Virus record (IMG/VR): IMGVR_UViG_3300008216_000091
Location: 1-22,833 of that record
Direction: 5' to 3' (one strand)
DNA: 22,833 bases
Source of the DNA: a virus
Shown here: positions 13,284 to 17,819 of the stretch, piece by piece
Layout: each line of letters begins with the position of its first letter
Numbering within the stretch: position 1 is the stretch's first letter
Notes under the pieces: generated by a model
What the model was told of the DNA's origin: nothing
Seen by the model: the letters and a program-made list of their open reading frames with translations, nothing else
Databases searched by the model: none
Position numbers and translations under genes: made by a program

Positions 13284-13309
13284 GATCCCTACTTTCTGGC
13301 GAAGTGACA

Positions 13310-13329
13310 GGGGAGGGTCACCCCTCCCC
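13310..13329 (-). terminator. GC-rich hairpin after the major capsid gene
   Basis: A perfect 8-bp stem, GGGGAGGG pairing with CCCTCCCC around a 4-base loop, lies 13 bases beyond the capsid stop codon. No T-run follows on the transcribed strand, so it is not a textbook intrinsic terminator. It may be a leaky terminator, an RNA-stabilising 3' end for the capsid message, or a processing site. Confidence 0.5.
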
Positions 13330-13342
13330 CCACCTACTCAGT

Positions 13343-14626
13343 TTACGATTCGGCCACGTCTTCGATCTTGGCCCCGGCTGCCGGGTTGTCACTCAGCAAC
13401 TGTCCCTGCCAGTACCACGCCACCTCGAAGGTCGCGTTGGAGGTCTGACGGAAGAACGGGGTTCCATCGAACACCTCCGAGACCGGACGCGGCACTGCAT
13501 TCTCGCCGTGACCGATATAGAAGTGCTTGGTATCGAGCCCGATGATCGTATTGGCCGCGAAGTACGGCTCAACGTGCCACGGATTACCGCTGAAGCGGTA
13601 GACGGTGCGTCCATCGCCACCGTCGGTCCCCTTCTGCTGCGCCCCGCCGTCACGACCCACTCCAGCCCCACTATCGAACGCTTTCGGAGAACTCATCGCA
13701 AAGAAGGTGTCTTCTCGCAGGAGTTCGTGATAGCGCCGGATGATGGCGAGATTGGAGAGATAGGCATTCAGCTTGGCCCCGCCCTTCTCACGGACGGCAT
13801 CTTCCAACTGAATGAGCAGGTCTTCCGTGAGTGCCCGATTGGTGCCGCTGTTCTCAAGCACGATCGATTCCCAGAACTCGTTCCCCGCCGTGCTCCGGTT
13901 GATATTCCCGAAGTTTCCGGAGGGTGGATTGGCATCATCAATGATGCCGAGGAGTCCTTCCGTGTGGTAGATCGCCCCGGATTTCGTCGTATTTTCAATA
14001 CAGAAGAAATCACCGGCTGCGGTCCCACTGGGTGCCGATCCACTGATCGTCACGGTACGGTTTTGCACATCAATCGCCGAGACGGTTCGGGACGCCGCCA
14101 AGTCTGTATCGTTGTCAGAAGCATCAATCAGATCGACGGTCATCCCCAGGTCGATACTGGGAAGGGCGTCCACGGTAATGGTGGTCTGATTATCTGCTGC
14201 TGGCATAATCGCCAGCTTGCCGAGGCCATCCGAGATCAGATCGGCGTTGATGAGTTTGAGAATGCGCCGACGGAAGCCCCCTTCCATCATTTTCAGGGCC
14301 GTCTGGAACGCAAACTTCGAATTCCGCGCGTCCTGGATGAGCTTCCACGACATATTGTACAGCCCCGCAAACTCTTGGAGGCTGAACGACGCCTCGGTCG
14401 TGTCGGGATCGATATTCGACGGCAACGCACCGCCTTCTGCCAACCCACTCCACGCGCCGGGGTTCTTCACCATGATGGGCATCAGGAACTGCCCTCGGCC
14501 AGCCATCGGTTTCTTCATCTTCTGGAACATATTCCAGCAGACGACCTCTTGGTTGACAAGGTACAAGACCTGATCGACCCCGTAGGTGTATTTCAGGGCT
14601 TCAATAACATCAGTTGTACTGGCCAT
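13343..14626 (-). CDS. Major capsid protein, HK97-fold
   Basis: A 427-residue protein that should build the icosahedral shell. The order fits HK97-fold capsids: a helical N-terminal arm (TTDVIEALKYTYGVDQVLYL), an E-loop-like glycine-rich segment (MAGRGQFLMPIMVKNPGAWS), a spine helix (FAFQTALKMMEGGFRRRILK), and a P-domain ending in IGLDTKHFYIGHGENAVPRP and FEVAWYWQGQLL. An insertion of about 80 residues from position 160 (SIDLGMTVDLIDASDNDTD to GDFFCIENT) is a beta-rich insertion domain. It follows the scaffold gene and precedes a decoration-like gene. GGGAG lies about 10 bases before the ATG. Confidence 0.85.
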   Translation of the reverse strand: MASTTDVIEALKYTYGVDQVLYLVNQEVVCWNMFQKMKKPMAGRGQFLMPIMVKNPGAWSGLAEGGALPSNIDPDTTEASFSLQEFAGLYNMSWKLIQDARNSKFAFQTALKMMEGGFRRRILKLINADLISDGLGKLAIMPAADNQTTITVDALPSIDLGMTVDLIDASDNDTDLAASRTVSAIDVQNRTVTISGSAPSGTAAGDFFCIENTTKSGAIYHTEGLLGIIDDANPPSGNFGNINRSTAGNEFWESIVLENSGTNRALTEDLLIQLEDAVREKGGAKLNAYLSNLAIIRRYHELLREDTFFAMSSPKAFDSGAGVGRDGGAQQKGTDGGDGRTVYRFSGNPWHVEPYFAANTIIGLDTKHFYIGHGENAVPRPVSEVFDGTPFFRQTSNATFEVAWYWQGQLLSDNPAAGAKIEDVAES

Positions 14627-14657: not shown

Positions 14658-15479
14658 TTATTCCGATTGACCTGGGTTGAGCATCGGCCACAATTCGTCC
14701 GTGCGTTCCTCGGGCGTCTTGTATCCGCCGGTCTTGCCGCTGGTGGGCGAAATCTCTCCCCCCCGTGATGGGAAAGGTGAGGCTTTGGCGGCTTTCGCCG
14801 TCGCCCGGTCGGCATCCCGCACCACTTTTTTGATCCCCTCCCACTGTTTTCGCAGCAACTCGGGGAACTCTTGATCAAGTGGCGCACCCGTACGCGACAA
14901 GTACATGTCGCGCATCATCTCGTAGATGAGCGGGTGATCGGGAAGACCCTGTTCCTCGCGGAGTTTCACAAACCGGGCTTCGAGGGCCTGCTCAGCTTGC
15001 TTGCCTTGGCTACTGCCTACACGCTCGGACAGTTCCTGCTGGTCCTGTCTGAGCTTCGCAATGATCTGGTCACGCTGCTGGACCGCCTGATTGAGAGGAT
15101 TGATCCCCTCGGTCACCATGCGTTCCATGAGCTGCGCGGCCGTCGCCCCATCCAGATACGGTAATTTGCGTAACTCGTCCAGCATAGTGGTTTGACTCTG
15201 CTGTCCCTGCTGAGCCTGCTGCTGAGCCTGCTGCTGGGCCTGACGCGCATACTGCTGTTGCTGCATTTGCTGGGCATACTGCTGCAACTGCTGTGTCTGC
15301 TTGGTGCGTTCGGTATCCCACGCTTTACGGTCCTCGGCAAGGGCCTGCGTTTTCCTCGTGTACTCGGCCTGAGCCTCCGCTGGCCAGGAATCGGATGTCT
15401 TGGTTTCTCCTCCACTCTCTGTAAGGTCCGGAGCCACCCCCGTTTCCTCGGGTGCAGCCGTCACATCGTCATCTGCCAT
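14658..15479 (-). CDS. Capsid scaffolding protein
   Basis: A 273-residue, highly charged, Gln-rich protein just upstream of the major capsid gene. Residues about 60-97 are a Gln/Ala tract (QQMQQQQYARQAQQQAQQQ), residues 130-175 are coiled coil (QQRDQIIAKLRQDQQELSER), and the C-terminus is basic then acidic (RATAKAAKASPF to TPEERTDELWPML). This is the usual build of scaffolding proteins, which guide capsid assembly and are then lost; the basic C-terminal part would bind the capsid protein. The start has GAGGAG at ideal spacing. A strong promoter and a leader hairpin lie in the 147 bases upstream. Confidence 0.8.
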   Translation of the reverse strand: MADDDVTAAPEETGVAPDLTESGGETKTSDSWPAEAQAEYTRKTQALAEDRKAWDTERTKQTQQLQQYAQQMQQQQYARQAQQQAQQQAQQGQQSQTTMLDELRKLPYLDGATAAQLMERMVTEGINPLNQAVQQRDQIIAKLRQDQQELSERVGSSQGKQAEQALEARFVKLREEQGLPDHPLIYEMMRDMYLSRTGAPLDQEFPELLRKQWEGIKKVVRDADRATAKAAKASPFPSRGGEISPTSGKTGGYKTPEERTDELWPMLNPGQSE

Positions 15480-15522
15480 ATCCGCTCCTCAGTCGAGTGG
15501 CCCGTGAGTGCGTCGAGAGGTG

Positions 15523-15538
15523 CTCATCTGCCGATGAG
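15523..15538 (-). promoter_or_regulatory. Hairpin in the scaffold mRNA leader
   Basis: A perfect 6-bp inverted repeat, CTCATC and GATGAG around a 4-base loop, lies about 45 bases upstream of the scaffold start and inside the leader made from the promoter at 15598-15626. It may stabilise the leader RNA or control translation. Its size is modest, so chance is possible. Confidence 0.3.
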
Positions 15539-15597
15539 TCTCCTGATGCGTGTTCACGATCCGTGTTCGCCTCAGTCCTGTCTGGGCAGTCGATCTC

Positions 15598-15626
15598 AGT
15601 ATAGAAAGGGGCGAGAATCCTGTCAA
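15598..15626 (-). promoter_or_regulatory. Sigma70-type promoter for scaffold and capsid genes
   Basis: On the minus strand TTGACA (15626-15621, full consensus) is followed by a 17-base spacer and TATACT (15603-15598, 5 of 6). The -35 box begins directly after the portal stop codon. Transcription should start near 15591, leaving a leader of about 110 bases before the scaffold ATG. This would give extra transcripts for scaffold and capsid, the proteins needed in most copies, without raising portal and terminase. Confidence 0.75.
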
Positions 15627-17819
15627 CTACATCTGCTGCTGCGACATCGCCTGCGCCAACGCCTCGGGGGCCTGCGGAGCGACCTGCTGACTGGCCTTGA
15701 CCTGCTCCAGCGCCATATCCACGGCCTGGGCGGCCGCTTTCGCGGCGGCCTGCTGGGTCGCCTGGGCGACAGCACTCTGGATCTGTTGCTGCTGCATCCC
15801 GCTCTCCCGTCGCTCGGACGCCTGGACGAGAAACTGCCGACACTTGTTCCAGAACGCCACGAAGCCCTGCTGGATGCCCTGACTCGCGCCGAGCCATTCC
15901 GTCGTGGCCATTTCCGACTCCAGCTCATCCATGATGACGCGCAGGTTCCAGAATGGCATTGGAAGATGCTCCGGCAGCGGCTGCCCCTCCCAGAGGCGTT
16001 CGACCAGGGATCGGGCGAGCTTGCGATACTGCGACTCTCTGGCTTCGCGGCCGATATCGCCCATTTCCAGGTCAGACGCGATTTTCTCCTTATCGATGCG
16101 CCCGGTACGTTCATCGACGTACAGAATCCCCAGTGGTGATTGGAGGTGTTCACGAATCCGAGCTTCCCGGAGCGCCCGGAGTTCAGGAATCAGGCTTCCG
16201 CGTTCGACCGTGATGGAGTAATCGGTCCCCGATCGGAGGATTTCCGACGCCTGGAAGGTGAAGACCTCGTCTCGCATACTCTTATCGGTGTAATGGAGCG
16301 TCCGCATCGCCGGATAGTATTCCTTGACCCGGTTGATCCGCATTTCCTTGACCTTGGCGAATCGCTGCCCGAGATGCTGATAGAGATTTCCCCACTGGGT
16401 GTCGATAATCTCCTGGAGCATCGGGACGGCCATCGGACCGCGCATCTGACCCGGAAACTTCGATTCGGAGAACAGATCGATCCCCCCCGCGATTTCACGC
16501 ATCAATTTGATCGTTAAATCAATTGATTGCATGAACCAGGCAGGTAGCTGGGGCGGATCACGGCGCTGGATCATCTTCACGCCGGTTTCAGTCAGGCCCC
16601 CTTCGATCGGAGCCGGGTAATCGGCGGGGATATCTTCCCGTCTCACCGTCGGGCCGAGCAGTTCATCGGCATAAATGGACGCATTCGCCTGTTCGCCCAG
16701 CTGGGAGAGGCGTTTATTGAGAAACCGCTGTGGCGCAATCAGATCGGAGAGGTAATCCGTGCTCCAGAAGCTCGTCGTCGTCGGCCCCCAGTGATAATCC
16801 ACGATCGGGATGGATTCGTAGGGACTATCGCCGTCCTGGATGATCTGTTCACCGGGAATGAACGCGGAGTACTTCCCACGGGGGTGTTTTGACGAGATCG
16901 GCTGAAATCGTTCCACCACGACGGAAAGATCAGGATCATTCTGCGCCTGACTCCCCTGAATGCGTGGAATAAGGTCCTGGAGATGCACCGAGCCGGTCGG
17001 ATCGCCCAGCTGCTTGATATCGGTGCTGAGAATCCGCACTTCGGACGCATCCTTGATATTCTGGATAGTTTCGGCACTGATGTCGTAATTTGCCTCGATC
17101 CAGCCCAGCGTCCGGATTTTGGCCAGATACACGGCCTGATCCGGGCTGAGATCGTCCAAGGATCGCACCGAGGCATCCACAAAGACCTGGAGAGGGCTCA
17201 GAATTTCACTGCCCACGTCACCGGCCAGGACCATCTCCTCCACGACCTCGAACCGTTCGGCCGGAGCCCCCTGCATGAGTGCCTCCTGCCGGAGGGACTC
17301 GGGTATTTGCTCCCCGGTCTGCACATCGGTCCAGACGAGTTCATTCGTCTCGGGATCGAAGCGGGGCATCGGTTCCATCGTGGCATCTTTGACCCACGGC
17401 ACGTATTCAAAGGCCACGCCGCCAATCGCCATCCACCAGAGGATTTCCCACGTCCGTGACCGCTGATCGAGCTTTTCATCCAGCGCCCGGATCAATTTAT
17501 TGACCACCTCGGCATTTCCGACCGATTTCGGGTCCTGTTTATCGGCCCGCGCCTTGAACACGGGTGCGATACTGCTCAGACGCCCCATCATCTTGTGGAG
17601 CATCTGTCCGGCGAGATTGAAGACCAGGTAGAGCTTGTTCGGGTCCCGTTTCCGGGTAAAGAGCACCCGATTTTGGCTCCCGATCCAGTGTTCGCCGGAG
17701 GCAAACGACAGATTGGTCAAGATCCGGAGTTCGACCGACCCGACGTTCCGGGCTTTCTGGGCACGAAGCCGGTTGTAGTCGTCGGTATACTCCGCCAGGG
17801 CAGTTGCCGTATCAGCCAT
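15627..17819 (-). CDS. Portal protein
   Basis: A 730-residue protein of the length seen in large portals of short-tailed phages. Portals form a dodecamer at one vertex through which DNA enters and leaves. Recognisable parts are the N-terminal region (SFASGEHWIGSQNR, NKLYLVFNLAGQMLHKMMGR), a core strand region (EILSPLQVFVDASVRSLDDL), clip and stem region (WGPTTTSFWSTDYLSDLIAP, FLNKRLSQLGEQANASIYAD) and the segment IDLTIKLMREIAGGIDLFSE. The C-terminus (about 650-730) is Gln/Ala-rich coiled coil, as in a barrel. ATG follows the previous stop by 6 bases with AGGA upstream. Position after terminase and before scaffold is typical. Confidence 0.85.
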   Translation of the reverse strand: MADTATALAEYTDDYNRLRAQKARNVGSVELRILTNLSFASGEHWIGSQNRVLFTRKRDPNKLYLVFNLAGQMLHKMMGRLSSIAPVFKARADKQDPKSVGNAEVVNKLIRALDEKLDQRSRTWEILWWMAIGGVAFEYVPWVKDATMEPMPRFDPETNELVWTDVQTGEQIPESLRQEALMQGAPAERFEVVEEMVLAGDVGSEILSPLQVFVDASVRSLDDLSPDQAVYLAKIRTLGWIEANYDISAETIQNIKDASEVRILSTDIKQLGDPTGSVHLQDLIPRIQGSQAQNDPDLSVVVERFQPISSKHPRGKYSAFIPGEQIIQDGDSPYESIPIVDYHWGPTTTSFWSTDYLSDLIAPQRFLNKRLSQLGEQANASIYADELLGPTVRREDIPADYPAPIEGGLTETGVKMIQRRDPPQLPAWFMQSIDLTIKLMREIAGGIDLFSESKFPGQMRGPMAVPMLQEIIDTQWGNLYQHLGQRFAKVKEMRINRVKEYYPAMRTLHYTDKSMRDEVFTFQASEILRSGTDYSITVERGSLIPELRALREARIREHLQSPLGILYVDERTGRIDKEKIASDLEMGDIGREARESQYRKLARSLVERLWEGQPLPEHLPMPFWNLRVIMDELESEMATTEWLGASQGIQQGFVAFWNKCRQFLVQASERRESGMQQQQIQSAVAQATQQAAAKAAAQAVDMALEQVKASQQVAPQAPEALAQAMSQQQM

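Follow-up and report, generated by a model that had tools for sequence, protein, structure and literature searches.

A conserved promoter and a predicted structured leader RNA precede the scaffold gene in a group of uncultured bacterial viruses

In phage T7, genes 9 and 10 form a unit with the promoters phi9 and phi10 and with the terminator Tphi past the capsid gene. In phage P22, unassembled scaffold protein acts post-transcriptionally to repress its synthesis, an autoregulation reportedly described by Casjens and colleagues. By analogy, T7 genes 9-10 with Tphi would be the closest parallel for the organization of the unit considered here, and P22 scaffold autoregulation the closest for its regulation. 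As in T7, where there is also extra capsid product, the scaffold and capsid genes appear to have a promoter of their own, and a hairpin stands directly past the capsid gene. T7, however, employs promoters of its own RNA polymerase and a real terminator, whereas the promoter found here is of the host sigma70 type, the hairpin is without a U-tract and the leader of the scaffold gene is a conserved folded RNA. The resemblance to P22 resides in a P22-like portal protein (PF16510) and in the gene order terminase-portal-scaffold-coat, the scaffold gene lying between the portal and coat genes; we know of no comparable promoter and structured leader upstream of P22 gene 8.

The locus and its relatives

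The window, i.e. the whole stretch of DNA that was analysed (22,833 nt; positions 1-22,833 of IMG/VR record IMGVR_UViG_3300008216_000091), belongs to a group of bacterial viruses that are uncultured and have come to light through sequence surveys, and the features described below lie on its minus strand. The portal protein gene (15627-17819; 730 aa) matches PF16510 (E 1.7e-8) and phrog_156 (E 3.8e-10) and ends with a TAG stop codon at 15629-15627; the scaffold gene (14658-15479; 273 aa) starts with the ATG at 15479-15477; the major capsid protein gene (13343-14626; 427 aa) matches phrog_14242, major head protein (E 2.1e-19), and the gene of the terminase large subunit was assigned through a match to phrog_2. 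The scaffold assignment is based on the position between the portal and capsid genes and on matches to phrog_3927 (head scaffolding protein) obtained for 14 of the 22 aligned members of the scaffold family, with a best E of 1.1e-5; no such match was given by the scaffold protein of the window itself, which a structure model of modest confidence (mean pLDDT 65.6) predicts to be mostly helical.

No cultured relatives were found among phage records by portal or terminase searches, a search of phage records with the leader DNA returned no relatives, and none of the 32 candidate stretches from a scan of bacterial genomes proved to be one. Phage records gave only weak capsid matches, to Microbacterium phage Shocker (MW507126; 26.3% identity across 75% of the query) and to Podoviridae sp. 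ctEqG8 (MW202795; 30.9% identity across 38% of the query). Like the window, Shocker has a GC-rich hairpin past its capsid gene; its portal gene is followed by a small gene and then by a terminator-like hairpin before the gene in the scaffold position, the promoter scan found no promoter there, and model R1 of the leader (see below) gave no match above chance. In ctEqG8, the leader was not found by R1, and the portal gene overlaps the next gene, so that there is no room for a promoter and a leader.

Some features vary within the group itself. In L023 and others, capsid identity reaches up to 99%, as opposed to 83% for the portal and 65% for the scaffold protein within one phage, which suggests exchange of the capsid gene or strong constraint on it. 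Several relatives (e.g. L063) carry a small DUF6496-type gene between portal and promoter (PF20106, E 5.3e-7, for one of the three tested), which is absent in the window.

The promoter upstream of the scaffold gene

A sequence-only reading of the window had proposed a near-consensus promoter, TTGACA-17-TATACT, directly past the portal stop codon, and the proposal was confirmed. The sigma70-type promoter occupies 15598-15626, with the -35 hexamer TTGACA at 15626-15621, immediately past the portal stop, a spacer of 17 nt and the -10 hexamer TATACT at 15603-15598, so that it matches 11 of 12 positions of the TTGACA and TATAAT hexamers placed 16-18 nt apart. That it represents a chance pair of hexamers in an ordinary intergenic region is hardly credible. 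Weaker sites do behave in this way, those with 9 of 12 matches being about as many in a simple scan of the window as in shuffled sequences (11 versus 8.2), but two sites reach at least 11 of 12 where 0.077 would be expected, and none of 300 first-order Markov simulations reached two. The second such site, TTGACT-17-TATAAT (22576-22548, minus strand), sits upstream of a possible 123-aa gene. Because of this second site, the score alone cannot single out the scaffold promoter, whereas conservation does.

Conservation was assessed in two sets of relatives, in neither of which the hexamers had been preselected. A portal protein search gave 63 loci, 49 of which hold both the portal and the scaffold genes and represent 36 distinct gaps; every one of these has 10 or 11 of 12 as its highest promoter match. 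Among the 80 distinct leaders with enough upstream sequence, 65 have a promoter with at least 10 of 12 matches (11 in 48 leaders and 10 in 17), compared with 16 of 3000 windows of 90 nt drawn at random from those loci. On these counts, together with the excess of high-scoring sites in the window, a chance origin was rejected. The distance from the portal stop to the -35 hexamer ranges from -13 to 2803 nt across 75 distinct cases, which indicates that the promoter travels with the scaffold gene and not with the portal gene. Inverted repeats just 5' of the -35 hexamer are enriched (15 of 50 versus 2.0 shuffled) but inconsistent. Judged by its conservation, the promoter is real, and it very probably works.

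Of the 15 leaders with lower scores, three have TTGCTT-17-TATACT, two are without a -35 hexamer (L118 and L134, which have lost it and present TGnTATACT, an extended -10 element) and ten have TAGACA, a palindrome and a poor -10. The latter form one branch (L075, L082, L085, L087, L092, L093, L097, L100, L136 and L150), in which, upstream of the leader, the palindrome AGACATC-N5-GATGTCT lies in the spacer of a weak promoter (TAGACA ... TACACT or similar). The palindrome is operator-like and suggests that a DNA-level regulator may act in this branch as well; that one branch has a weak promoter and a palindrome instead counts against the main explanation put forward below. The palindrome branch also has extra genes of unknown family between portal and leader, such as those at 7365-6694 of L099 and 3814-2951 of L082 (minus strand; 223 and 287 aa, respectively), the former giving no Pfam match. 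Furthermore, in L085, L087, L092, L097 and L099, which are part of this branch, a second 5' hairpin (such as TTAGGGC/GCCCTAA) is found at the 5' end of the leader, between the -10 hexamer and the rod described below.

Architecture and conservation of the leader RNA

The -10 hexamer is separated from the scaffold ATG by 118 nt, and about 112 nt are counted from the putative start near 15591 (promoters of the sigma70 type start their transcripts about 7 nt past the -10), in agreement with the leader of approximately 110 bases anticipated before the scaffold ribosome-binding site, for which GAGGAG at 15490-15485 was identified by eye. The 6-bp hairpin that had been noticed in the leader is present as well (CTCATC-GGCA-GATGAG, 15538-15523), but it turns out to be no more than the apical end of a rod about 75 nt long within the scaffold gene's 5' leader, a structured RNA (15480-15591; R1 match of 105 bits) that is supported by covariation. 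One internal loop, GA-AYAC / AC-UC, occurs three times in the rod, the last time in inverted orientation. From the base, it consists of P1 (YGA/UCR), loop 1, P2, a symmetric inner loop and P3, followed in the upper part by loop 2, P4, loop 3, P5 and the apical tetraloop.

In the window, the long strand GAACAC of loop 1 (15568-15563) faces ACUC at 15498-15495, and that of loop 2 (15555-15550) faces ACUC at 15509-15506, while in the inverted loop 3 the long strand, GAGCAC, is on the 3' side (15525-15520) and its partner ACUC at 15539-15536. Across the family, loops 1 and 2 have the long strand GAAYAC on the 5' side opposite ACUC, and loop 3 has the inverted motif. The modules include four adenines, A32, A34, A49 and A80, that are invariant in all 69 distinct rows of the alignment, along with pyrimidines that alternate at position 33 (C in 47, T in 22), position 48 (T in 37, C in 32) and position 79 (C in 42, T in 27). 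The apical tetraloop is GGCA in most rows, a frequency that is inflated by the gathering of part of the rows of this alignment (A4) through a hairpin pattern.

By sequence description, the loop motif resembles the C-loop. The latter (PMC8983868) is an asymmetric internal loop in which (C/U)AC of the long strand, typically with C first, is opposed by an A on the short side; UCACU/AAA is the 23S example. In sequence, the leader modules are like the C-loop so described in the asymmetric internal loop in a hairpin stem and in (C/U)AC opposite A, but differ from it in that there are three tandem copies, one of them inverted, and in that U is common where C is typical.

Model R1, built from 33 distinct leaders, matches every one of 37 additional portal loci, with scores from 23.6 bits upwards, and all 15 longer records, exactly once each. 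An independent profile placed the leader in all 82 distinct capsid loci, at 600-1400 nt 5' of the capsid gene. L222, which is an unrelated phage and lacks the neighbouring genes, gave a weak R1 match that was taken as chance. Alignment A4, fitted to R1, takes up 75 of 79 sources; the four omitted (L115, L116, L117 and L128) are weak R1 matches (23.6-27.5 bits) under the cut-off. In its 69 distinct rows, 87.8% of the cells pair, as compared with 67.7% after shuffling and 27-47% for slid structures, and 390 cells are changed on both sides, as compared with 140.1 (sd 11.4) after shuffling and 53-89 for slid structures. In a tree-based test (our own re-implementation, in which substitutions are re-dealt along the tree, with 40 null alignments), five column pairs were significant, all five inside the leader structure. 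The stems thus covary beyond phylogeny, at a fixed place 5' of one gene, and the comparison makes it highly likely that the leader is a functional cis-acting RNA.

An element that works as DNA, as a packaging or recombination site, would also be at home next to the portal gene in the structural gene cluster, where the leader lies; such a role is most improbable, given that the stems still pair through two-sided changes while the loops stay fixed, and that the element is always found between the promoter and the scaffold start, in a single orientation relative to the gene. A known RNA family was likewise rejected for both the leader and the hairpin past the capsid gene, with no match at gathering score to the 4227 Rfam families: there were no matches in the whole window, the best E was 1.9 for the leader alone, and the hairpin stayed below gathering with a best E of 0.27. 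A literature search, largely confined to papers outside subscription, yielded nothing on the leader RNA or on P22 scaffold autoregulation.

A swap test lends support, in the 22 short leaders, to an outer helix that flanks the ribosome-binding site, only one of 2000 swaps scoring as high. In the window, CUGCC (15589-15585) might pair with GGCAG (15477-15473) to form a closing helix, P0, across the scaffold start codon; covariation lends P0 no support in the window's branch, and when the 5' and 3' parts of P0 were swapped among all 59 distinct leader ends, no excess was seen (12.58 versus 12.57), a null control that weakens the case for this long-range helix in long leaders. The idea of a ribosome-binding site closed by default is weakened, too, by the predicted opening energies, which average 9.2 kcal/mol for the scaffold start region and 12.9 kcal/mol for that of the capsid gene, the former being higher in only 11 of 72 cases. 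Since the scaffold start region is predicted to be the easier one to open, the leader would not be closed by default.

It could be argued, then, that the promoter alone acts and that the folded leader just stabilises the message or boosts its translation with no specific protein ligand, as exemplified by the leader of T7 capsid gene 10. This reading, which is consistent with the conservation of the promoter and with the prediction that the start region is closed no more tightly than the capsid gene's, is nevertheless unlikely, for three like loops with invariant bases exceed the needs of a stabilising stem, and no relative was found without the rod, which is kept in 82 of 82 loci. Promoter strength alone does not account for a leader that is a conserved structured RNA.

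The hairpin past the capsid gene and control of the scaffold-capsid message

The GC-rich hairpin that had been noted past the capsid gene is present at 13341-13296. It is a conserved element of the form CUGAGUAGGUG-[GC stem]-UGUCACUUCGCCAG; the pattern with a variable GC stem is found directly past the capsid stop codon in 122 of 123 matches, the remaining match being at a contig end without a capsid gene. Among 65 distinct downstream regions the element is exact in 59, and variants are found in the other six. The stem is GC-rich, with 97.5% of the cells paired in 45 distinct rows, and 77 cells are changed on both sides as compared with 19.8 after shuffling; only one pair passes the tree-based test. 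Past the stem, a U-tract is absent, and (T)GTCACTTCGCCAG or close variants are found instead, so that an intrinsic terminator was rejected. In ctEqG8, by contrast, a hairpin with a very similar stem, GGGGGGAGGG/CCCTCCCCCC, which is also directly past the capsid gene, is followed by a U-tract and constitutes an intrinsic terminator; in view of this similar stem in a matching place, the conserved hairpin may be a modified terminator. It probably serves to mark or to protect the message's 3' end, or to keep the message apart from the downstream genes. As a separate observation, the tip of the hairpin is inverted between the window (13296-13341) and L002 (9142-9187), GTGA versus TCAC, in phages that are otherwise nearly identical, perhaps through a stem-loop flip or as an effect of assembly.

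Taken as predictions from sequence comparison, the promoter, the RNA fold, its attachment to the scaffold gene and the hairpin past the capsid gene are all strongly supported. With a dedicated promoter and a conserved hairpin past the capsid gene, scaffold and capsid look like an expression unit of their own, and they are probably transcribed as a separate unit, with a leader that acts in cis as a control RNA. The earlier proposal of a dosage device for scaffold and capsid therefore holds as regards the strong and dedicated host-type promoter and the conserved hairpin, but it had overlooked the structured RNA leader, which probably sets the amount of shell protein made. Transcription from the sigma70-type promoter just 5' of the scaffold gene would produce a separate mRNA within the structural gene cluster; its leader of about 112 nt would fold into the long rod with three loop modules, ending beside the ribosome-binding site, and a protein bound to the repeated loops would allow the rod to tune translation or stability. 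We infer, that is, a separate scaffold-capsid message controlled by a protein that reads the repeated loops.

Which protein would do so can be proposed only tentatively. The leading candidate, at less than even odds, is the unassembled scaffold protein, which would make the leader the site of an autoregulation such as that of P22 gene 8. It is possible, though somewhat unlikely, that the ligand is another phage or host protein (the capsid protein or an early regulator) or a small molecule, and that the leader is an on/off switch of late expression: the highly conserved loops and the usual GGCA tetraloop would suit such a ligand, and the palindrome inside the promoter of one branch suggests a regulator at the DNA level as well, but no Rfam family is matched, and in the 15 longer records the leader is found before the scaffold gene only, once per record. 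More speculative still, and doubtful, is the view of the rod as a new class of phage RNA, whose tandem C-loop-like modules, three identical ones about one helical turn apart, would offer an assembling component of the capsid a multivalent platform. If this were true, procapsid assembly would be sensed or joined by the message for scaffold and capsid, or by a small RNA released from its leader by cleavage, which would make the element something intermediate between the phi29 packaging RNA and a translational operator.

How the scaffold-to-capsid ratio is set in tailed phages is understood for few systems. The leader provides a compact RNA element that lends itself to testing, is strongly supported by evolution and repeats a loop which a protein could read; it may deserve an entry as a new RNA family, and it suggests an RNA operator on which scaffold autoregulation could be examined.
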